From contig NZ_OY764015.1 in assembly GCF_963667775.1 (NCBI RefSeq), positions 2,903,001 through 2,967,000 of the forward strand: DNA of 64,000 nucleotides, written 5' to 3'. Of the stretch, positions 13,471 through 55,064 are shown piece by piece. The notes beneath the pieces are model-generated. The model saw only the letters and a program-made list of their open reading frames with translations, did not search any database and was not told the origin of the DNA. A program made the position numbers and the translations under genes. How positions within the stretch are numbered: position 1 is the first letter of the stretch; each line of letters begins with the position of its first letter. The DNA is from an uncultured Trichococcus sp. (GTDB lineage: Bacteria > Bacillota > Bacilli > Lactobacillales > Aerococcaceae).

Positions 13471-13606
13471 CAAATTGTCGAATGCTACAAAATTATTCAA
13501 CAATTTGACCCCAATGGAGAGATGATTTGTCGAATGTTCAAAAACATTCGACAATTTGGGCATAGCGAAAGGCAAGATTGACGAATACAGGTACTTTATT
13601 CGTCAA
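13471..13606. repeat. Triple inverted-repeat element, stem word TTGTCGAAT
   Basis: Three inverted repeats: 13471-13507 (CAAATTGTCGAAT / ATTCAACAATTTG), 13527-13554 (TTGTCGAATGTT / AACATTCGACAA, perfect 12-bp arms) and 13578-13606 (TTGACGAATA / TATTCGTCAA). Their centres are at about 13489, 13540.5 and 13592, so 51.5 bases apart both times. The element lies between the 43-residue gene's terminator and the convergent ECF gene. See the other triple elements at 18457, 42816, 46937 and 54935. Confidence 0.75.
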
Positions 13607-13663
13607 TACGGGCATCTGGCCGGTGTTGACTCAACCCGAGAAGGACCCTTCCTTTTCAATTCA

Positions 13664-14200
13664 TTATCTTCCAGCGATATTCATCTTTTTCAAAATTGCC
13701 GACAGCGGCAAGGAAATGGCGATTCCGACCGCGTTCTGGACGAGGTTACCGGGAATCGAAGCGAACGGGGTGATGGCATTGCCGTACAGGATCCATTCGC
13801 ACAGATAATAACCGACCAGCATGATGGGAACCGAAAGCAGCGTGGCCAAAAGATTCACAGCAAAGCTGTCCCCTTGGCGGCCTTTCGACCAGGCCAATTT
13901 TCCGACCAGATAGCCTTGCAAACCCCGCGTAACCAATGTGAAGGGAGCCCACAGAACCCAACCGGCCATGAGGTCGAAGATGGCCATGCCGACCGCTCCG
14001 GCGATGGCGCCTTTTTTCGGTCCGAAAAGGATGGATGCGAGAAAGAGCATCGCAGTGCCGAGGTGTATCAATCCGCCGTTTGCCGTGATAGGCAATTTGA
14101 TGTTCAGGAAGACCGTCGCAACGAATACGAGCGCGATCAGTATTGACGTCAAAACCAAATCATACGTGCGTGTGTTTGAATAACCTTGTGCTTTTTGCAT
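13664..14200 (-). CDS. ECF transporter S component
   Basis: A 178-residue membrane protein with about six hydrophobic segments and the pattern of vitamin-specific ECF substrate-binding subunits (DLVLTSILIALVFVATVFLN, ANGGLIHLGTAMLFLASILFGP). It would bind a vitamin or precursor and use the shared EcfA/A'/T module encoded elsewhere. It begins 11 bases after the class V aminotransferase on the same strand, so they are probably one operon. Pyridoxine-type or hydroxymethylpyrimidine-type S components look most alike, but the ligand is an inference. Confidence 0.8.
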   Translation of the reverse strand: MQKAQGYSNTRTYDLVLTSILIALVFVATVFLNIKLPITANGGLIHLGTAMLFLASILFGPKKGAIAGAVGMAIFDLMAGWVLWAPFTLVTRGLQGYLVGKLAWSKGRQGDSFAVNLLATLLSVPIMLVGYYLCEWILYGNAITPFASIPGNLVQNAVGIAISLPLSAILKKMNIAGR

Positions 14201-14211
14201 AGTGAAGCCTC

Positions 14212-15363
14212 CTAATTATTTTCTTTGTAAATGTCGATGAAAAGTTGGGCCAAATCCCCGTTTCCGGAGAAGCCTGAATCACGCAGACCGTTGTCGATGA
14301 TGGACAAAACATAGATAAGTTTGTCGATGAAGGCATTTTCGCCCATATGCCCGATGCGCAGGATTACATCTGCGTATTGTGCCAATGAAGTAGCGACCAA
14401 CAGATTGTAGTTTTCGCTGAGGTGGTCCTGCAGGCGCAAGGCGCCGATCTCTTCCGGTATCCTGATGGCAGTGACTGTATTGGAACGGTCGGAATCCAGG
14501 AACAACTCCAATCCATACGCTTGGACGGCTTCGCGCACTCCGGAAGCGATCCGGTCATGGCGTGCCAAAACTGTCTCGATGCCTTCCTCCAGGATATTGT
14601 CCAAAGCGGCATCGAGCGCTGCGACATCGCCGGCAGAAGTCGTGTAAGGCAGGTATTCTTTTTCCGCGTAGCCTTTGAAGACCTGCAGATTGGCATAGAA
14701 GGAAGCGATAGGCGTTTTGCGGTTGTCCATCGCTTTTTGCGCGTCTGCGCTGACGGAGACGATGGCCAGTCCGACCGGAGCCGAAATGGCTTTTTGGGTC
14801 CCGCCGCAGCAGATGTCAATCTGGTTTTCGTCCACGTTGATCGGTTCTCCAACCATGCCGGCTACCGAGTCGACCACCGTCAGAATGCCGTATTCCTTCA
14901 GCAATGGACAAAGCTCGGCGACGTTGTTCAGCACCGATGTCGGCGTGTCGCAATGGACCAGGGTAGCATATTTGAAGTCGGAATCCTTCTCCAGATAGGC
15001 GCGTACCGCTTCAGTGGGGATGCCGCTGCGGTGATCGAAACTCAGGACGACCGGTACGCCGCCATAGATGCTGACGAAATCCTTGAAGCCTTCGCCGTAG
15101 ATGCCGTTGTCCAGTACGAGCACGCGGTCGCCGGGCTCCGTCAAGCTCGCACAAGCGGCCTCGAGAGCCAGTATCCCTTCGCCGACAAGCAACAGGACCT
15201 CATTCGTGGTGCCCATGACTTTGCCCATTTTTTGGCAGACCTCCCGGTAATAGCGGACAAACGTTTTGTCGAAGTCGCTGTTGTTGGTTCTTTTTGCGCG
15301 GGCCAATTGCACATTTTCGCGCACCTCTGTCGGACCCGGGGCGTAATTCGGTTTGTATCTCAT
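14212..15363 (-). CDS. Class V aminotransferase (alanine/serine-glyoxylate type)
   Basis: A 383-residue PLP enzyme of the alanine-glyoxylate/serine-glyoxylate/pyridoxamine-pyruvate group. The N-terminal YAPGPTEVRENV is typical. Asp165 in TVVDSVAGM contacts the PLP ring nitrogen and Lys191 in CCGGTQKAISAP forms the Schiff base. The start at 15363 is set by AAGGAGGATTTCCCG just upstream; a longer open frame to 15618 lacks any signal. Its partner gene is an ECF vitamin S component, which makes a pyridoxamine-related role possible, but amino donor and acceptor cannot be read from sequence. Confidence 0.85.
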   Translation of the reverse strand: MRYKPNYAPGPTEVRENVQLARAKRTNNSDFDKTFVRYYREVCQKMGKVMGTTNEVLLLVGEGILALEAACASLTEPGDRVLVLDNGIYGEGFKDFVSIYGGVPVVLSFDHRSGIPTEAVRAYLEKDSDFKYATLVHCDTPTSVLNNVAELCPLLKEYGILTVVDSVAGMVGEPINVDENQIDICCGGTQKAISAPVGLAIVSVSADAQKAMDNRKTPIASFYANLQVFKGYAEKEYLPYTTSAGDVAALDAALDNILEEGIETVLARHDRIASGVREAVQAYGLELFLDSDRSNTVTAIRIPEEIGALRLQDHLSENYNLLVATSLAQYADVILRIGHMGENAFIDKLIYVLSIIDNGLRDSGFSGNGDLAQLFIDIYKENN

Positions 15364-15667
15364 CGGGAAATCCTCCTTGTTGTTTCGTATATTGCTGATT
15401 ATTTTAGCAAATGAAAAGGTCTGTGAAACCGTCCAATCCGACAGAAAGTGAGCGGTCCAATTTGGTTCGGAATGGATTCTTGGATGCGTTTTGTAAATGT
15501 GAGCGCAACCAATTTCGGGTTGCGTAAGTTTTCCCGCAAAACTCTTCCTTTTTTTCGGGGATTGGCGGACTTCCGGAAGCTTATACTGTGGCAAAGGGCA
15601 GGCAAATTGGCCTATCAATCAGCTTACAGCAAACGCTGCGAAACCAAGTACAGTGAGGAGCACACCG

Positions 15668-16381
15668 ATGCAAGGCATCAGCGAGATTCAAAAAGATCTA
15701 TCATCCTATACATTGAAGAACCTTGCGATATTTGCGATGTTCTTCGATCATATTTTTGCGGTATTTGTGCCGCAGGACAGCCTTGAAGGTGTTGCGCTGC
15801 GCATAGTAGGGCGGATTGCCGCCCCGATCATGTGCTATATGATTGCGGAAGGCTATCATTACACATCCAATCTGAAGAAATATATGGTACGGCTACTGCT
15901 GTTCGCCGCCGTTTCGCATTTTCCGTATGTCTGGTATTTCGGTCTCCCGTGGTGGCAGGCAACGAGTGTCATCTGGGGTTTGGCGTTGGGATTGGTGGCA
16001 TTGGCGACGGCCAAACGGGAGGATTGGTCCCATCCGCTGAAAGTCTTCATCGTTTTAATCTGCTGTCTCTTGGCGGTCCCGGCTGATTGGAATTATGTAG
16101 CGGTCTTGTGGATCTTGTTTTTCGGATTGTTCAGGGGACAAATTGGAAAGCAACTAGTGAGTTTTGCAATCATAGGGATTCTGTTCCACATCATCCCTTC
16201 CATCAACGAAATCGGTTGGACGCAATCCTACCAAATCGGCATTTTTCTGGTGATGCCGCTGCTGCTGTTCTACAAAGGCCGTCAAGGCAAGAAATCCAAC
16301 CTGATGAAATGGGGCTTCTATGTTTTTTATCCGTTCCATCTGTTGCTGTTGGAACTCGTGAAAATGATTGTATCCGCGTAA
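15668..16381 (+). CDS. TraX-like integral membrane protein
   Basis: A 237-residue polytopic protein with about eight hydrophobic segments. NLAIFAMFFDHI at the N terminus, RIVGRIAAPIMCYMIAEGYHYT and the C-terminal FYVFYPFHLLLLELVK match the TraX/acyltransferase-like family, where members acetylate exported substrates such as pilin. Here no conjugation genes are near, so it is a chromosomal TraX-like protein of unknown target. The ATG at 15668 has GAGGAG seven bases upstream. The VanX-like lipoprotein starts 19 bases after its stop. Confidence 0.82.
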   Translation: MQGISEIQKDLSSYTLKNLAIFAMFFDHIFAVFVPQDSLEGVALRIVGRIAAPIMCYMIAEGYHYTSNLKKYMVRLLLFAAVSHFPYVWYFGLPWWQATSVIWGLALGLVALATAKREDWSHPLKVFIVLICCLLAVPADWNYVAVLWILFFGLFRGQIGKQLVSFAIIGILFHIIPSINEIGWTQSYQIGIFLVMPLLLFYKGRQGKKSNLMKWGFYVFYPFHLLLLELVKMIVSA

Positions 16382-16400
16382 TGGAGGACTGAATATACAT

Positions 16401-17579
16401 ATGTTAATAAGAGAAATTTGGCGCCGCGTTTTCATCGGCATCCTGACAGGGATGGTGCTGTCCGCTTGCTCCGGCTCGAATGAACAAACGGAAACGAATG
16501 AGTCTAAGACCGCTTCGTCTAGCTCGGCTGCCGAAGTGGGAACTTCCGAAGAAGCAGCGGTGGTCCGGCCGGAAGAGTCAGAGCCATTGCTGTATGAAGG
16601 GGATCTGGAACTTCCGGTCAACGGAGCGACTGGTTATACTTCGGTACTGATGGATCTGAAGGCGACTGCAGATGCCGGATCCGAAACGATTTCGGAATTG
16701 GAGGCGGGCACCGCTTTTGAAGTGCTCAAGGAAGAGGGTGATTGGTGGTATGTCCAGACCGCAACCGAGGCAGGCTGGGTCCAACACCTTTATTGCTTCA
16801 TCAATCTTCCGGACGTTATCCCTTCCATCATCTACGACAATACCAACACGTACGCATCCAAGTTCGTTTCTTCGGGAAAAACGATTCCCGGCATCACGGG
16901 TCAGGCGCTGTACGACGGGAAAGCATACAATAGGCGGCTGGGTAAAGTGTCCGACATCGTGCCGGTGCTCTACAGCATGTCCAAGAAAATCCATCTGGCG
17001 CAACAAGCCGCCTTGGCGGAGGGGAATTCCTTGGTCATCTATGAGGGGTACCGACCTTATTCCGCCCAGAAACTGACTGCAGATGCTTTGACGAATCTGG
17101 CTGCGGCAGATCCGGAAGTGATGGCGGGCATCAATACGTACCCTTGGGACACCAACTGGTTCATCGCTACGAATGTTTCGAATCATCAGATGGGCTATGC
17201 CATCGATGTCACGTTGGCAAAAATAACCGAACAGCAGGAAATCATCATCGGCGAATATGCCGCGACCGCCATAACGGGCTACACGGAGTATACGATGCCG
17301 ACAACCATCCATGAATTGAGCATGGCTTCGGCTACGTTCACCGGACCGGTCAAATCCAGCTCCCCGACCGCTTGGCTCCAAGCCGATTTGGCGGATACGA
17401 TGAATGAGGCAGCCATCCTCCTGCAGCGCTACTGCACGGACGCCGGATTGACACCGCTGGCTTCGGAATGGTGGCATTTCAATGATCTCGATGCGCGTTT
17501 CGCTACCGAGGGGAACAGCAGCAAAGGCGAATATCTTTTGGATGCAACGATGAGCGAGGCTCCGGAAGCGGCTGAATGA
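16401..17579 (+). CDS. VanX-like D-Ala-D-Ala dipeptidase lipoprotein with SH3 domain
   Basis: A 392-residue exported lipoprotein. The signal ends in the lipobox LSAC (Cys23), followed by a Ser/Glu-rich linker, a bacterial SH3 domain (about residues 75-130) and an M15D peptidase domain. The zinc site is complete: His262 and Asp269 in SNHQMGYAIDVT, His359 in EWWHFN, with Glu356 as catalytic base. It probably trims cell-wall D-amino-acid peptides outside the membrane. The context carries no other van genes, so vancomycin resistance is not implied. Co-transcription with the TraX-like gene is likely. Confidence 0.88.
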   Translation: MLIREIWRRVFIGILTGMVLSACSGSNEQTETNESKTASSSSAAEVGTSEEAAVVRPEESEPLLYEGDLELPVNGATGYTSVLMDLKATADAGSETISELEAGTAFEVLKEEGDWWYVQTATEAGWVQHLYCFINLPDVIPSIIYDNTNTYASKFVSSGKTIPGITGQALYDGKAYNRRLGKVSDIVPVLYSMSKKIHLAQQAALAEGNSLVIYEGYRPYSAQKLTADALTNLAAADPEVMAGINTYPWDTNWFIATNVSNHQMGYAIDVTLAKITEQQEIIIGEYAATAITGYTEYTMPTTIHELSMASATFTGPVKSSSPTAWLQADLADTMNEAAILLQRYCTDAGLTPLASEWWHFNDLDARFATEGNSSKGEYLLDATMSEAPEAAE

Positions 17580-17608
17580 CGAGTAGACAAGGCTCAAAAT
17601 GGACATAA

Positions 17609-17646
17609 AAAGAGGCACGATCGAATTTCTCGATCGTGCCTCTTTC
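17609..17646. terminator. Intrinsic terminator after the VanX-like gene
   Basis: AAAGAGGCACGATCGA pairs with TCGATCGTGCCTCTTT around a five-base loop. It also lies just downstream of the minus-strand tRNA and can end that transcript. Confidence 0.85.
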
Positions 17647-17667
17647 CTATTCTGTGCTGAAACTTGA

Positions 17668-17739
17668 TGGTCCCTACTGGGATTGAACCAGCGACCCCTA
17701 CCATGTCAAGGTAGTGCTCTCCCGCTGAGCTAAGGAACC
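17668..17739 (-). tRNA. tRNA-Val (anticodon GAC)
   Basis: The minus strand folds as a full cloverleaf: acceptor GGTTCCT/AGGGACC, D arm with AGCTCAGCGGGAGAGC, anticodon stem CTACC/GGTAG around TTGACAT (anticodon GAC), and T arm with GGTTCAATCC. The discriminator is A, and the 3' CCA is not encoded. It reads the Val codon GUC (and GUU by wobble). Confidence 0.95.
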
Positions 17740-17903
17740 GTTAAACAGATGAATCACCTGCTCGTATATCTGATTATAACATATTTGCGCGAGAAGTGAA
17801 GAGGTAAATTAAAAAAATGTGGAGCGAATAAGGCATGCATTCCATAGGACAACAGGGTATACTGTAAAAGGATAATTGAAAAGGAAAATTTGGAGGCTAT
17901 TTT

Positions 17904-18428
17904 ATGAACAACAATGATATATTGATCCGACTGCGCTATGCGCTGGACATCAAGGATGCGGATATGGTCGAAGTATTCCGCTTGGGCGGACTGGAAGTGA
18001 CGAAGGAAACTGTCCAGAAAATGCTCAAAAATCCAAAAAAGGATGAAGCGGCGGATACTGCCGGGGCTGCAACACCATCGGACGACGATCAATTGACTTG
18101 CGACAATGCGGCCTTGGAATCATTCTTGAACGGGCTCATCACTTCCCAACGCGGCAAACCGCAAGTGAAGCCAGGCGAACCGGAACCAAAGCCGGAATTT
18201 GTATTGAACAACGGGAACGTCAATAATATGCTGTTGAAGAAAGTCAAAATCGCGCTGACTTTGACAAACGAAGACATGCTTGAAATCCTGGAATCGGCAG
18301 GAGTCAAAGTGTCGAAAAGCGAACTGAGTGCGGTCTTGCGCAAAGAAGGGCACCGCAATTACAAGCCTTGCGGCGACCGCTATGCGCGGAATTTCCTGAA
18401 AGGGTTGGCGTTGCGCTACAGAGGATAG
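17904..18428 (+). CDS. YehS-type DUF1456 protein
   Basis: A 174-residue cytoplasmic protein made of two copies of the DUF1456 helical unit: NNDILIRLRYALDIKDADMV near the N terminus and NNMLLKKVKIALTLTNEDML near residue 107, each followed by a K-x2-(V/E) segment and a conserved C-terminal patch (KPCGDRYARNFLKGL). The two halves are joined by a Pro/Lys-rich linker. Function of the family is unknown. The ribosome site is TTTGGAGG. The stop is followed by the triple inverted-repeat element, whose first hairpin serves as its terminator. Confidence 0.88.
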   Translation: MNNNDILIRLRYALDIKDADMVEVFRLGGLEVTKETVQKMLKNPKKDEAADTAGAATPSDDDQLTCDNAALESFLNGLITSQRGKPQVKPGEPEPKPEFVLNNGNVNNMLLKKVKIALTLTNEDMLEILESAGVKVSKSELSAVLRKEGHRNYKPCGDRYARNFLKGLALRYRG

Positions 18429-18449
18429 GCTGGAATTGAATTTAAGTTG

Positions 18450-18485
18450 AAATAAACCGCCAAAATGGTTTTGGCGGTTTATTTT
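18450..18485 (+). terminator. Intrinsic terminator (first hairpin of a triple element)
   Basis: AAATAAACCGCCAAAA and TTTTGGCGGTTTATTTT pair perfectly around TGG. Confidence 0.8.
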
Positions 18486-18581
18486 AGTTCAAACCACAGT
18501 CTGAAAACCCGCCAAAGCCACCTTGGCGGGGAAAAACGTACGCGGACAACGCTAGACTCCCTGTCAAAGCCATTTTGGCGG
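18457..18581. repeat. Triple inverted-repeat element, stem word CCGCCAAA
   Basis: Three 21-base units: 18457-18477 (CCGCCAAA...TTTGGCGG), 18509-18529 (CCGCCAAAG...CTTGGCGG) and 18561-18581 (CTGTCAAAG...TTTGGCGG, left arm degenerate). Centres are at 18467, 18519 and 18571, exactly 52 bases apart. It lies between the DUF1456 gene and the convergent pseudouridine synthase. The spacing matches the TTGTCGAAT and CTCCGG elements although the stem sequence is different. Confidence 0.75.
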
Positions 18582-28160: not shown

Positions 28161-30242
28161 ATGGGGAAGTTGAAAGCTATCCTATTCAAATCAAAAAAAT
28201 CGATCATTGTCACGGCGGTCCTTCTGCTGACTCTGCTGGTGGGCGGAGGTGCTGCCTACTGGTGGTATCAGAATGCCCAGGTCCAGCAAGTGTCGGTGCA
28301 AACGGCCTGGAAAGGGCAATTGGCGAAGTATGTGCCGATAACCGGCGACATCGAAGCCAGTAGCCGTAGCAGCCTTTATCCTTCGCCCACAGCCAAGATT
28401 GTCGAAGTGCTGGCGGTGGAAGGGCAAGCAGTCAAGAAAGGTGATGTGCTGGCGAGGATCGATTCGACCGAATACCGCACCCAGTTGGAAAAGCAGACCA
28501 TCAATCTTGCCAATGCAGAGGCGACGTTAGCCTATCTATCCGGGAGCAGCGCAGAAATGGACAAGGCATCTTCCCAAAATGCGGTGAGCCAAGCGGGGAT
28601 TGCGTTGGAAAATGCCCGATCCAATTACAGCGCGGCGCAAGGTAATCTTGATGACATCAATACGCTCAACGCAAATGCCATCAAGCAGGCAAATATAGCC
28701 CTGGAGAACGCCCGGTCGAATTATGTCACGGCCACCTCCAATTTGGAGGCGCGGGGAACGCTCTACGACAATGCGGTGAGCCAAGCTCAAATAGCCTTGG
28801 AGAGCGCCCAAGCGAACGCTGCAGCATTAACGGATAAACTGCATAACGTCGAAATAGCCAACGCGAATGCGGTCGGCCAAGCCGAACTGACTTTGGAAAA
28901 TGCCAAGGGGCATTACTGGATCGCAAAAAAGAATTTGGATGATCTGAAAAATGCCCTGCATGAAGCCGAATGTGCGTTGGAGACTGCTAAAGCAACCTAC
29001 GAGAGTGCAAAACTGAATCTGGATATCGTCAAAGCCTTGTATGATTCCGATCCGATTCTGTATGCAGTGGACTATCAGTTGGCGCAACAGGCTGTCACCG
29101 CTGCCGAAACGGCGGTATGGAACGCTGAACTGGCTTTTGACAGCGCTGAAATGGACTATCAAGCCGGCTATGATGCGGCGAAATTGGCAGTGATCGATGC
29201 CGAAACGGCTGTCCGCAGCGCGGAAATCGCGCTTTCGAATGCCGAAAACGCAGCCGACGCTGAATATGCTGCAGCCGCAAAAGCGGTTTCGGACAGCGAA
29301 GCAGCTGTGAGCAGCGCGGAAATCGCACTTTCGAATGCCGAAAGCGCGGGCTCTCTTGAATATGCGGCAGCCGAAAAAGCCGTCAGCGACAGCGAAGCCG
29401 CTGTACGCAATGCGGAAATCAGCGTTTCAAATGCCAGAAGCGGTGCAGCCGTAAAATATGAGGCGGCAATCAAGGCGATCAGCGATGGCGAAAAATCTGT
29501 CCGGAGCGCGGAAATCGCTCTTTCGAATCTGAATACCACGGCAAGCTTTTCGAGCGCAACAGCAGAGGAAAGGATCTCCAATCAAGCCGACCAGATTGCT
29601 CTCCTGAAAACGGACATCGCCTATTTGAACAAAAAAATCGAGGAGTGTGATCTGAAAGCCAATGTCGACGGCATTGTGACAAAGATGGATGTAGTGGCGA
29701 ACGAATATCCTCAGATTGGCGATGCCATCATCATCGACGGGGCGACCGAATATGTGATCAGCTTGGCTGTCAGCCAGTATGACAGCGTCACTATGCGGGT
29801 AGGCCAAAAGGCAACCGTCAAGGTGAAAGGAGTCGCTGCGGAATACGCTGGGATTGTCTCTGAAATCGGCCAATTGGCGGAAAAATCCGCGACCGCAGCT
29901 GATCAGGATGCGAAAGTCGCGGTAAAAATAACGATCACCGAGCCTGATGAAAACATCAAGGTGGGTTATGAAGCCGATGCGGAAATCATCACGGTCGAAA
30001 GGCTCGATGCCCTGCGCGTGAACTATGAGGCTGTTCAAATCGAAGCGGAATCCGGAAAAGCGTATGTATATGTTGTGGACAGCGGAAACCGAGCCGAAAA
30101 AAGATACATCGAAACCGGGCTGGAAACAGAATATGATATTGAAGTATTGGATGGTTTGGTGGAAGGGGAACGATACGTCGCTGATCCGAACAAGGAACTT
30201 GTGGACGGTGTCAAGGTAAAGGACAGCGGTGAAGCCGATTGA
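28161..30242 (+). CDS. Very long membrane-fusion (periplasmic adaptor-like) protein with 32-residue repeats
   Basis: A 693-residue HlyD/MacA-like adaptor with an N-terminal membrane helix (residues 16-36), a lipoyl-like half motif (IVEVLAVEGQAVKKGDVLARID), a very long Ala-rich helical region (about 110-480), the second lipoyl half (CDLKANVDGIVTKMDV) and beta-barrel domains. The helical region contains two blocks of tandem 32-residue repeats: four at residues 141-268 and three and a half from residue 343. Typical Gram-positive relatives are much shorter. It is divergent from an FtsX-type ABC pair and is its probable partner. The ATG at 28161 has GAGGGGG eight bases upstream. Confidence 0.88.
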   Translation: MGKLKAILFKSKKSIIVTAVLLLTLLVGGGAAYWWYQNAQVQQVSVQTAWKGQLAKYVPITGDIEASSRSSLYPSPTAKIVEVLAVEGQAVKKGDVLARIDSTEYRTQLEKQTINLANAEATLAYLSGSSAEMDKASSQNAVSQAGIALENARSNYSAAQGNLDDINTLNANAIKQANIALENARSNYVTATSNLEARGTLYDNAVSQAQIALESAQANAAALTDKLHNVEIANANAVGQAELTLENAKGHYWIAKKNLDDLKNALHEAECALETAKATYESAKLNLDIVKALYDSDPILYAVDYQLAQQAVTAAETAVWNAELAFDSAEMDYQAGYDAAKLAVIDAETAVRSAEIALSNAENAADAEYAAAAKAVSDSEAAVSSAEIALSNAESAGSLEYAAAEKAVSDSEAAVRNAEISVSNARSGAAVKYEAAIKAISDGEKSVRSAEIALSNLNTTASFSSATAEERISNQADQIALLKTDIAYLNKKIEECDLKANVDGIVTKMDVVANEYPQIGDAIIIDGATEYVISLAVSQYDSVTMRVGQKATVKVKGVAAEYAGIVSEIGQLAEKSATAADQDAKVAVKITITEPDENIKVGYEADAEIITVERLDALRVNYEAVQIEAESGKAYVYVVDSGNRAEKRYIETGLETEYDIEVLDGLVEGERYVADPNKELVDGVKVKDSGEAD
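28581..28964 (+). repeat. Four tandem 96-bp coding repeats (32 residues each)
   Basis: Units start AVSQAGIALENARSNY, AIKQANIALENARSNY, AVSQAQIALESAQANA and AVGQAELTLENAKGHY, each exactly 32 residues after the last. Confidence 0.85.
29187..29530 (+). repeat. Three and a half tandem 96-bp coding repeats
   Basis: Units start AVIDAETAVRSAEIALSNAE, AVSDSEAAVSSAEIALSNAE, AVSDSEAAVRNAEISVSNAR and AISDGEKSVRSAEIALSN at 29187, 29283, 29379 and 29475. Confidence 0.85.
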
Positions 30243-40664: not shown

Positions 40665-42021
40665 TATCGTGATCAAGGAAATCGTCACCGGGCTTTCGAG
40701 CTTCGAACTTTTTTCTTTGTTCCGCGACCGCAAGCATTGTTTTTTCCTTGACAGCGGGATGGATCCGGGGAAATTGGGACGCTATTCCTTCATCGGATTC
40801 GATCCCGAACTAACGTTGACTGCCAAAGCGGGCGTGGATCCTTTCGAAGAACTGAAAGCACTGCTGGAGGACTATCAGCTGGACTATACAGGGGAGCTCC
40901 CTTTCATCGGAGGAGCTGTCGGCTACTTCGGCTATGAACTGCGTCATCAAGTGGAACGGTTGCCGAAGGAAGCGCACGATGATGTCCAGATCCCGGACAG
41001 CTTCTTCTGCATTTATGACGGGGCGATTGTGGTGGACCACCTTTTTGGAAAAGTCCATCTTACCTCGCCGGGATTCTTCGGTAATCCGGAAAAGTGGGTG
41101 GCCGAGGTGGAAAAAACCATCATGGCTGCGGAGGGGATGAGATTCCCTCTCCGTGCCTTGGAGTTGGCCAGTGAAGCCAGACCAAAGCTCACCGCGAACA
41201 TGACAAAAGACTATTATCTGGATGCAATCGCGCGCATCAAGGAGTATATCCGGTCCGGAGACATCTATCAGGTCAACATGACCCAACGCTTCCAGTGCCG
41301 GACGGAAGCATCGCCCTACGAGCTGTACACGCGTTTGCGCGACATCAACCCGGCTCCATTCGCCGCCTACATCGACTTCGGAATGGGCCAGCTATTGAGC
41401 AGTTCGCCGGAACGGTTCCTGCAAATCCGCAACGGCAAGGTACAGACGCGGCCGATCAAAGGTACCCGGCCACGCGGCGCTACCGAGCAGGAGGATAGCG
41501 CCAATCGCCAAGAATTGCTGGAAAGCGAGAAGGACCGTGCCGAATTGCTTATGATCGTCGATCTTATGCGCAATGATTTGGGTCGGGTCTGCAAAACAGG
41601 CAGCGTCAAGGTAACGGAAATGTATCATATCGAAGACTACAGCACCGTTTTTCAGCTTGTTTCGACAGTCGAAGGGCAGTTGGAGGAAGGCATCCATGCG
41701 CTTGATTGCATCAAAGCCGCCTTCCCGGGTGGATCGATAACGGGTGCGCCGAAAATCAGGGCCATGGAAGTCATCGATGAAATCGAACCGACGCAACGCA
41801 ACGTCTATACCGGATCGATCGGCTATGTCGGGTTCAACGGCGATGCCGATCTGAACATTGTCATCCGGACGATCCTCCAAAAGGGCGACACTGCCTATTT
41901 TCAGGTCGGCGGCGGTATCGTCTGGGATTCGGATGCGGAAATGGAATACGAAGAGACGCTTGTGAAGGCGAAGGCACTCATCGAAGCGCTGCAGGCGGAA
42001 TTTCCAATGGAGGAGGGATGA
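40645..42021 (+). CDS. pabB: Aminodeoxychorismate synthase, component I
   Basis: A 458-residue chorismate-utilising enzyme that converts chorismate and ammonia to 4-amino-4-deoxychorismate. The active-site blocks are YQVNMTQRFQCR, PIKGTRPRGATEQED, ELLMIVDLMRNDLGRV and GSITGAPKIRAMEVIDEIEP. It overlaps pabA at its start and pabC at its end, so the three are translationally coupled. TrpE relatives differ mainly by operon context; here the downstream lyase argues for folate synthesis. Confidence 0.92.
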   Translation: MKKRATDIVIKEIVTGLSSFELFSLFRDRKHCFFLDSGMDPGKLGRYSFIGFDPELTLTAKAGVDPFEELKALLEDYQLDYTGELPFIGGAVGYFGYELRHQVERLPKEAHDDVQIPDSFFCIYDGAIVVDHLFGKVHLTSPGFFGNPEKWVAEVEKTIMAAEGMRFPLRALELASEARPKLTANMTKDYYLDAIARIKEYIRSGDIYQVNMTQRFQCRTEASPYELYTRLRDINPAPFAAYIDFGMGQLLSSSPERFLQIRNGKVQTRPIKGTRPRGATEQEDSANRQELLESEKDRAELLMIVDLMRNDLGRVCKTGSVKVTEMYHIEDYSTVFQLVSTVEGQLEEGIHALDCIKAAFPGGSITGAPKIRAMEVIDEIEPTQRNVYTGSIGYVGFNGDADLNIVIRTILQKGDTAYFQVGGGIVWDSDAEMEYEETLVKAKALIEALQAEFPMEEG

Positions 42022-42023
42022 CA

Positions 42024-42836
42024 ATGCAAATATTTTTGAACGATGCCTATCTTGAGGAAGATGCAGCATTGATCAGCCCACTGTCCCCGGGTTTCATGTA
42101 CGGATACGGGGTTTTTGAGACGATCCGTGTCTCCGGTAAACAAGCGTTGTTTCTGGACCAGCATTACGCTCGCATGGTCCAGGCGCTGTTGGTTCTGGGG
42201 ATGACTTGCCCTTATCAGGAAAACGAGCTCCAGCCGATCATCGAAAAATTGCTGGGGCTGAATGGCGTTTCCGAAGGCTTCGTAAAGGTCGTCTGCAGCA
42301 AACCAGCCCCGAAAAAACAGCCGCAGCAGGAAGCGGATATCCTGATCTTGACAGGGACTAAAACCTATAAAGTGGAATATGCGACAGGCTTGAAAGTGCG
42401 CTTGGCCGATGCGAGAAGGAACGAATTCTCGAAAATTGTCGGCATCAAAAGTATGAACTATGCGGAAAACATTCTGGAAAAGGAAGCAGCCGTTCAGAAA
42501 GGCTTTGATGAAGCCATCTTTTTGAACACGCATGACCATGTTTCCGAGGGATGCGTTTCGAATGTTTTTTGGGTGAAGGACGGAATCGTATACACCCCGT
42601 CGCTGCACTGCGGCATCCTGGAAGGGACGGCTAGAGCGCGGATAATCAAGAAATGCGCTGCATTACAGATTCCGCTCCAAGAAGGAGCGTACGTTCTGGA
42701 GGAACTTTTGAGTGCGGATGAAGTATTCGTCACCAATGCCTTGATGGATGTCATGCCGGTGAGTCTTCTGGAGGACCGACACTTCGACCTCGGGGCCTAC
42801 CAAGTGGTGCCCCAGCTCCGGGGAAACGGGCGCTAA
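42024..42836 (+). CDS. pabC: Aminodeoxychorismate lyase
   Basis: A 270-residue class IV PLP enzyme that releases p-aminobenzoate and pyruvate. The Lys that binds PLP is in VGIKSMNYAENILE and the phosphate-binding block is HVSEGCVSNVFWV. The ATG at 42024 is preferred: AGGAGG lies seven bases before it, while the ATG at 42018 is too close. The last seven codons and the stop lie inside the first unit of the CTCCGG triple element, so the repeat supplies the C-terminal residues (VPQLRGNGR). D-amino-acid or branched-chain aminotransferase relatives are less likely given the operon. Confidence 0.88.
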   Translation: MQIFLNDAYLEEDAALISPLSPGFMYGYGVFETIRVSGKQALFLDQHYARMVQALLVLGMTCPYQENELQPIIEKLLGLNGVSEGFVKVVCSKPAPKKQPQQEADILILTGTKTYKVEYATGLKVRLADARRNEFSKIVGIKSMNYAENILEKEAAVQKGFDEAIFLNTHDHVSEGCVSNVFWVKDGIVYTPSLHCGILEGTARARIIKKCAALQIPLQEGAYVLEELLSADEVFVTNALMDVMPVSLLEDRHFDLGAYQVVPQLRGNGR

Positions 42837-42944
42837 CCGGAGCACAGCGGTGACTTTCCGCCCGCAACTCCGACGAGGCAAGCTTAACCGGAGCACGCCT
42901 GCGGAATGTAGGCTGAACTCCGGCGAAGCCGGCGTTCACCGGAG
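42816..42944. repeat. Triple inverted-repeat element, stem word CTCCGG (copy 1)
   Basis: Three CTCCGG/CCGGAG pairs at 42816-42842, 42868-42893 (left arm CTCCGA) and 42918-42944, with loops of 15, 14 and 15 bases. Centres are 51.5 and 50.5 bases apart. The first unit overlaps the end of pabC and contains its stop. Copies 2 and 3 are at 46937 and 54935. Confidence 0.85.
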
Positions 42945-46936: not shown

Positions 46937-47064
46937 CTCCGATGAAGGCCAGCCTGGCCGTAGCACCGACTTCAGATTCGCCCGCAACTCCGGCGGGAAC
47001 CGCTTGGCCGGAGCAGCCGGCCCAAGATCCGACATTCCTCCGGGGAACGCTACCTTCACCGGAG
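46937..47064. repeat. Triple inverted-repeat element, stem word CTCCGG (copy 2)
   Basis: Units at 46937-46963 (degenerate: CTCCGA/CCGTAG), 46988-47013 and 47038-47064, each with arms six bases long and loops of 15, 14 and 15. Centres are 50.5 bases apart both times. It fills much of the gap between the 84-residue gene and the LysR gene. Confidence 0.82.
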
Positions 47065-54934: not shown

Positions 54935-55064
54935 CTCCGATGAAGAGTATGTTGGCCGGAGGAAAGATACAGAACGAGAGCTTCAACTCCGGGGAAGGTG
55001 CGTTGGACGGAGAAAAGTCACTGGATGGGGGCGCCAACTCCGGGGAAAGCCCCATTCACCGGAG
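54935..55064. repeat. Triple inverted-repeat element, stem word CTCCGG (copy 3)
   Basis: Units at 54935-54961 (CTCCGA/CCGGAG), 54987-55012 (CTCCGG/ACGGAG) and 55038-55064 (CTCCGG/CCGGAG), loops of 15, 14 and 15 bases. Centres are 51.5 bases apart both times. It starts 16 bases after the GNAT-Maf stop. Confidence 0.85.

Follow-up and report, generated by a model that had tools for sequence, protein, structure and literature searches.

Here we describe a set of intergenic elements in a 64,000-nt stretch of the chromosome of an uncultured Trichococcus sp. (contig NZ_OY764015.1, positions 2903001-2967000 of 3.316 Mb; hereafter the window). The window holds five such elements, each consisting of three palindromes (dyads) whose centres lie 50.5-52 bp apart, and three palindrome words are used in all. 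This geometry is common to all the families of elements that we found. In the main family, named here after its CTCCGG word, it comes together with a prevalence of three dyads, a shared half-site, linkers of constant length, rarity in gaps between divergent genes and a core word that is kept between species. Judging from the sequence, we give a probability of roughly one half to the proposal that the elements are phased multi-dimer architectural sites for a symmetric, putative protein.

The initial annotation of the window had described two elements with their own words, here called T (13471-13606) and C (18457-18581), and had assigned a spacing of 50.5-51.5 bp to the CTCCGG copies. Recomputation returned the same coordinates, words and centre distances for the T and C elements, and the same range in the three CTCCGG elements of the window (A, B and C in Table 1). 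The dyads of the T element are centred at 13489.0, 13540.5 and 13592.0 (intervals of 51.5 and 51.5) and carry the word TTGTCGAAT, from which copy 3 deviates with TTGACGAAT. Those of the C element are centred at 18467, 18519 and 18571 (52 and 52) and carry CCGCCAAA, the left arm of dyad 3 being CTGTCAAA. That one geometry is conserved while self-matching words change is real, and wider than the annotation had seen. Indeed, at least six words with such spacing occur in this genome, namely CTCCGG (with a CCCGGTGAA variant), TTGTCGAAT, TTGTCCGAT, TCGGCTGTT, CCGCCAAA and the word of a GCCCGACAGA array, and more are found in other genera.

Could such regularity arise by chance? The genome sample amounts to 859 kb, 26% of the chromosome, and comprises the window and 40 further stretches. 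Of these, 39 lie on an even grid and the last (L109) was set beside the window, where two copies of the T element were already known, so that two of the five T triplets are not unbiased finds and a third is the window's own. The initial annotation had proposed a shuffled-sequence control, and equally spaced triplets outnumbered those in dinucleotide shuffles at every setting applied to 464 kb. Arms of 12 with at least 10 matches, a threshold under which the C element at 18457 falls, gave 3 triplets against 0 in each of 10 shuffles. At 9/11 there were 11 triplets where none of 5 shuffles had any, together with 48 pairs at 49-54 bp against 4-10, and the loosest setting (8/10) gave 33 triplets against 0-5. 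A scan for hairpins with perfect arms was too strict for the imperfect dyads and detected 0 triplets in the window. A word-agnostic test, in which palindrome pairs 30-130 bp apart were kept if their arms resembled each other, returned 154 pairs in the 859 kb (65 at 50-53 bp, 59 at 98-105, 10 at 86-89 and 20 scattered), compared with 0, 2, 4, 4 and 3 in five dinucleotide shuffles. By the same yardstick, 50 kb of Escherichia coli K-12 contained just 2 self-matching pairs, at 98 and 109.5 bp, and thus the spacing of its bacterial interspersed mosaic elements (BIMEs) is not measurable there.

The spacing is narrow in each family. It averages 50.66 bp for CTCCGG (standard deviation 0.61; 46 intervals in 23 triplets), is 51.5 bp in 10 of 10 intervals of the T family and 52.0-52.5 bp in the three triplets of the C family. 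Among the matches listed for TTGTCCGAT in six relatives, all 26 neighbouring dyads less than 400 bp apart were separated by 52 (19 cases), 104 (5) or 156 bp (2). As for the number of dyads, a scan of the 859 kb with the CTCCGG word found runs of three 23 times and runs of two 4 times, plus four arrays. Its 93 single matches are mostly chance (3 of 93 pass, at 15, a half-site profile trained on the 23 word-found triplets). When the same sequence was scanned with this profile, single dyads were found 4 times, two dyads once and three dyads 25 times, along with arrays of 13, 18, 23 and 27 dyads and nothing of 4-12. Extrapolation from these 25 triplets gives about 100 CTCCGG triplets per genome. 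In 444 kb of these stretches the profile found 131 dyads, as compared with 1 after they had been shuffled, and in 21 stretches from relatives it found one dyad 6 times, two twice and three 19 times. The word scans also recovered 5 T and 3 C triplets. Since the two runs of TTGTCCGAT have two and four dyads, and TCGGCTGTT forms runs of seven and nine only, three is not established for every word.

These counts bear on the idea that the elements are ordinary tandem duplications, that is, minisatellite-like arrays with a period near 51 bp by chance. Stem words do match within an element, and the long arrays of TCGGCTGTT, of CTCCGG in 189-bp units and of other genera are clearly tandem amplifications. 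However, 25 of the 30 small CTCCGG elements hold three dyads, their linkers are hardly more alike within one element than between elements (0.40 versus 0.36) and narrow periods recur with unrelated words, and we consider this explanation improbable for the triplets. Gene conversion, one of the ideas of the initial annotation, fares in the same way: like tandem duplication, it accounts for the long arrays and leaves the predominance of exactly three dyads unexplained. The CTCCGG arrays at L079:14149-17200 and L087:14415-15162 (L numbers denote fetched stretches) consist of 189-bp units with four dyads each, spaced by about 50.5, 50.5, 50 and 38 bp. A 104-bp tandem array of 7.3 copies with the palindrome word GCCCGACAGA...TCTGTCGGG lies at L079:10498-11256.

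Are the palindromes read as DNA or as RNA? The CTCCGG half-site is roughly Y-S-W-N-CTCCG-R-Y-G-A-R, with a similar profile in both arms. Two bases outside CTCCG, where both arms have A or T, the arms pair at 0.35 in 153 dyads versus 0.45 after shuffling, and at 0.49 versus 0.47 in the 77 dyads of small elements. In the 69 dyads of CTCCGG triplets, inner positions pair at 0.517 versus 0.531 in shuffles and outer positions at 0.359 versus 0.334, the observed value being reached by 30 of 300 shuffles; the corresponding sets for T, C and TCGGCTGTT are small (15, 9 and 16 dyads). Stem mismatches oriented by codirectional genes were 19 G.T and 31 A.C in elements of 2-4 dyads, and 13 and 14 in arrays. 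The linkers of the 23 CTCCGG triplets show a similarity of 0.36 versus 0.31 when shuffled and are nevertheless 23-25 bp long in 45 of 46 cases. The linkers of the C and T families differ in that part of their sequence is common to the copies. Taken together, little covariation, a shared half-site and a linker fixed in length without fixed sequence point to phased DNA sites, and the CTCCGG dyads look like sites for a putative symmetric DNA-binding protein rather than RNA hairpins.

The opposite view would be that each element puts three hairpins into a 3′-untranslated region, where they stabilise the mRNA or terminate it. Palindromes do fold as hairpins, the elements stand after genes and there is weak covariation beside the core. 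Overall covariation is small, though, G.T mismatches on the gene strand are no more numerous than A.C mismatches and a rigid spacing is not needed for RNA. Moreover, an Rfam search with gathering thresholds of five stretches (the window, L071, L072, L079 and L087) returned tRNA, T-box and TPP entries only, with nothing at the elements. An RNA function of this kind thus seems to us to have little likelihood. Among the ideas put forward in the initial annotation, dyads on one face of the helix bound by protein fit best, given the slight covariation, common half-site and fixed linker length of the CTCCGG family, and RNA hairpins are disfavoured; the half-sites, being sequence-specific, argue against one fully tolerant protein.

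Where do the elements lie? According to our own simple gene finder, 13 of 37 elements occupy convergent gaps, 22 codirectional gaps and 1 a divergent gap, and 1 overlaps a weak open reading frame. The background of 436 gaps comprises 70 convergent, 283 codirectional and 83 divergent. Two of the 37 (L072 16842 and L108 18853) resemble chance or other repeats and were retained in this count, and a further triplet in a divergent gap (L098 5362) stands outside it. The elements thus follow genes and mostly avoid divergent gaps.

Table 1. Positions of the dyads and triplets in the window.
Feature	Position	Strand	Words or dyads
T element dyad 1	13475..13503	.	TTGTCGAAT-N11-ATTCAACAA
T element dyad 2	13527..13554	.	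TTGTCGAAT-N10-ATTCGACAA
T element dyad 3	13578..13606	.	TTGACGAAT-N11-ATTCGTCAA
C element dyad 1	18457..18477	.	CCGCCAAAA...TTTTGGCGG
C element dyad 2	18509..18529	.	
C element dyad 3	18561..18581	.	
CTCCGG triplet A	42816..42944	.	dyads 42816-42842, 42868-42893, 42918-42944
CTCCGG triplet B	46937..47064	.	dyads 46937-46963, 46988-47013, 47038-47064
CTCCGG triplet C	54935..55064	.	dyads 54935-54961, 54987-55012, 55038-55064

A location after genes is also where selfish DNA would survive, and the elements might be repeats akin to repetitive extragenic palindromes (REPs) or miniature inverted-repeat transposable elements (MITEs), with a three-palindrome unit copied around the genome and its geometry simply inherited. 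Presence at the same site varies between species, and copies of the C and T families share sequence. In particular, the C family has eleven further copies, in both orientations and with conserved linkers, that are 70-82% identical over 84-151 bp (E <1e-10). On the other hand, the CTCCGG linkers have lost nearly all similarity and have kept their length, which would be hard without selection, and several unrelated words have the same geometry. A Y1 transposase was considered as a partner and rejected, because the four such genes of the genome look like ordinary IS200/IS605 members; in the loci fetched, isolated word matches only were found near them. A selfish origin is therefore possible in our view, but unlikely.

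Our preferred reading, phased triplets of putative symmetric protein sites, places the elements among intergenic palindromic repeats in the broad sense, as an unusual variant. Operators of oligomeric regulators of the Lrp type and of NrdR have several symmetric sites on one helical face, a likeness to the elements described here, which differ from them in their number (about 100 CTCCGG triplets per genome, as extrapolated above) and in lying mostly outside divergent gaps. The arrays of clustered regularly interspaced short palindromic repeats (CRISPR) have identical repeats separated by unique spacers and stand beside cas genes; as far as the repeats are concerned, those of the present elements are diverged, and the elements are dispersed. 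EFAR of Enterococcus is a 170-bp two-stem structure, and its mosaics arise from sequence modules inserted into stem-loops. Like EFAR and other small MITE-like repeats, the present elements belong to Lactobacillales, are intergenic, measure about 130-170 bp and contain several palindromes; judged by description, they differ in that the linkers of the main family are not conserved and the spacing is. EFAR is named among the MITEs in an excerpt of one published account (PMC3733652). Excerpts of that account and of a second one describe the REPs and BIMEs of Enterobacteria and Pseudomonas as high-copy intergenic palindromes after genes, clustered and regularly spaced, and the REPs of E. coli as targets of gyrase (PMC3733652, PMC2817692). 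The Trichococcus triplets share with them the high copy number, the position after genes and the regular spacing, whereas they are mostly triplets at about 51 bp with several unrelated words per genome. In addition, no associated Y1 transposase of the REP-associated (RAYT) type was seen among the four Y1_Tnp genes and their fetched loci. Finally, the GTAG/CGTC tag at the foot of the palindrome is missing on most dyads (present within 10 nt of the palindrome end in 10 of 69 CTCCGG, 0 of 15 T and 0 of 9 C dyads; background 31 of 565).

How are the elements distributed among relatives? The strict CTCCGG pattern was present in 13 of 13 genomes of the genus and in 0 of 63 other genomes of the family. 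The TTGTCCGAT pattern was present in 10 of 13 and 0 of 63, its exact form being absent from G061, G065 and the half-complete G071. Eleven relatives were fetched, ten of which were alignable at the three CTCCGG triplets of the window (sites A, B and C). By eye, triplets are present at these sites in 7, 5 and 4 of the ten, respectively, and absent from the others, with no clean empty site at the sites compared. In two relatives (L134 at A and L130 at B) the triplet has collapsed into one dyad, joined within the right arms of dyads 1 and 3, and in five relatives one CCGCCAAA dyad takes the place of the three that form the C-word element in the window. Between orthologous triplets, identity is 0.956 in the CTCCG arms, 0.780 in the linkers and 0.708 in the dyad centres. 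The two collapses might be taken to mean that a site-specific recombinase or transposase acts at the dyads, each being a core site of two 13-bp arms separated by 7-8 bp, and that triplets collapse by recombination. By eye, the T element and one array of Ureibacillus manganicus indeed have 13-bp arms around 7-8 bp. Homologous slippage, however, explains the collapses, the arm distances of the other words are quite different, and inspection by eye beside the arrays in L071, L079, L087 and L108 showed ordinary genes only, without a marker or recombinase gene. A recombination site is thus very improbable.

Outside Trichococcus, up to 20 kb was sampled from each of 20 other genera of the family, five of which gave less than 3.3 kb. 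In these small samples a triplet and an array at 51.0 bp came from one genus (g6, genome G025) and arrays at 41.0 bp from another (g12, G036). In 220 kb of each, G036 had 27 dyad arrays with periods of 31 (3), 40-43 (23) and 51 bp (1), and G025 had 7, with periods of 41 (2) and 51 bp (5). A third genus (L149) had two dyad arrays of 41 bp. In U. manganicus there were two arrays at 52.0 bp, and 110 kb of this genome yielded further periods of 51 and 38 bp; a pattern made for one of these arrays was too strict and had no match in its own genome. No such array was found in samples of at most 20 kb from each of 40 further Bacilli genomes, which represent 39 genera and 700 kb in total (five with less than 5 kb). 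For other genera, AT-rich pairs were removed by a G+C filter in one scan and by a milder one in a later scan; an unfiltered scan returned 117 pairs, mostly AT-rich and scattered, U. manganicus aside. By eye, most array words of other genera differ from those of Trichococcus, and the G036 array at L215 13494 contains CGCCAAA...TTTGGCGG, which is close to the C word. A TGTC...GACA core, again by eye, is common to many words of different genera (TTGTCGAAT, TTGTCCGAT, TGTCGGCTGTT, CTGTCTTAAT of U. manganicus and TTGTCA...TGACAA of G036). The periods near 31, 41 and 51-52 bp suggest three, four and five helical turns.

A model can be drawn from these observations. Each palindrome would be a two-fold symmetric DNA site for a putative protein dimer, and three sites on one helix face, about five turns apart, would form one binding unit of about 130-155 bp after genes. 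The three dimers may come together, for example as a trimer of dimers, and wrap or bridge the DNA as one assembly. Its role might be architectural, in supercoiling, in the nucleoid or in transcription read-through at gene ends, rather than in promoter control. Different words would belong to related proteins of different specificity, and the long arrays would have arisen by tandem amplification of these sites. More tentatively, the elements might represent an unnamed class of architecture site in Bacilli, in which three helically phased dyads are read by related oligomeric putative proteins whose words have diverged at one quaternary geometry, with three-, four- and five-turn variants by genus.

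Several observations weigh against phased sites for a symmetric protein. No candidate binding protein was found, and the absence or collapse of elements in some relatives means that no single one is essential. In orthologs from species chosen for a visible triplet, conservation in the remainder of the half-site (0.820) does not exceed that of the flanks (0.821). Three positions beside the CTCCGG core covary weakly (0.425 versus 0.375, reached by 17 of 300 shuffles), a larger CTCCGG set that includes arrays has five positions at p 0.02-0.05, and CTCCGG arrays in convergent gaps, where no strand is assignable, have 20 G.T and 8 A.C mismatches. A positive control of 25 terminator-like hairpins gave 0.380 versus 0.380 at unselected positions, so that the power of the covariation test is not demonstrated. 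With regard to phasing, there are dyad arrays with periods of 38, 54, 66 and 75 bp as well, and 50.66 bp is closer to 10.1 than to 10.5 bp per turn. In a Rayleigh test of the periods, which relies on a clustering of words that merges too many of them, the best fit was at 11.9 bp, and at 10.4 bp repeats without dyads reached scores like those of the dyad arrays.

If the proposal of phased protein sites is true, an assembly that reads three phased dyads at about 100 gene ends, an extrapolated figure for CTCCGG alone, would be a nucleoid or supercoiling system without a counterpart in the excerpts of the literature searched. Having different words at one geometry, the families would also allow a direct test of how DNA recognition evolves while the architecture stays constant.

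Some further observations concern individual words and sites. The 51-bp array of g6 at L140:4271-4883 has the word GTAACAACT-N14-AGTTGTTAC, which occurs with identical spacing as a single site in 5 of 250 Bacilli genomes, beside genes that we read as glycine-betaine transporter or GntR-type regulator genes. The idea that the array is a transcription-factor sponge was dropped, since a search of G025 for the neighbouring GntR-type regulator gave nothing at E 1e-5. In other Bacilli the words T and C gave no indication of being conserved operators, occurring in 1 and 10 of 397 other genomes, respectively, at single places each. In g12, about 20 units of 51 bp at L213:7443-8451 carry the dyad ATAACTTCGTATG-N7-GTATGAAGTTAG, which is reminiscent of a loxP arm. 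At L108:225-4952 of the Trichococcus chromosome, a 66-bp unit recurs about 72 times in 4.7 kb, apparently without relation to the triplets. Within the window, dyad 1 of triplet A overlaps the end of the upstream gene at 42018-42836 (own gene finder). An aminotransferase is encoded at 14212-15369; its 96% identity with proteins of Trichococcus sp. K1Tr and T. flocculiformis points to this genus. A tandem-repeat scan of the same 64,000 nt returned a single entry, a 96-bp repeat of 3.4 copies with 73% matches at 29201-29528.

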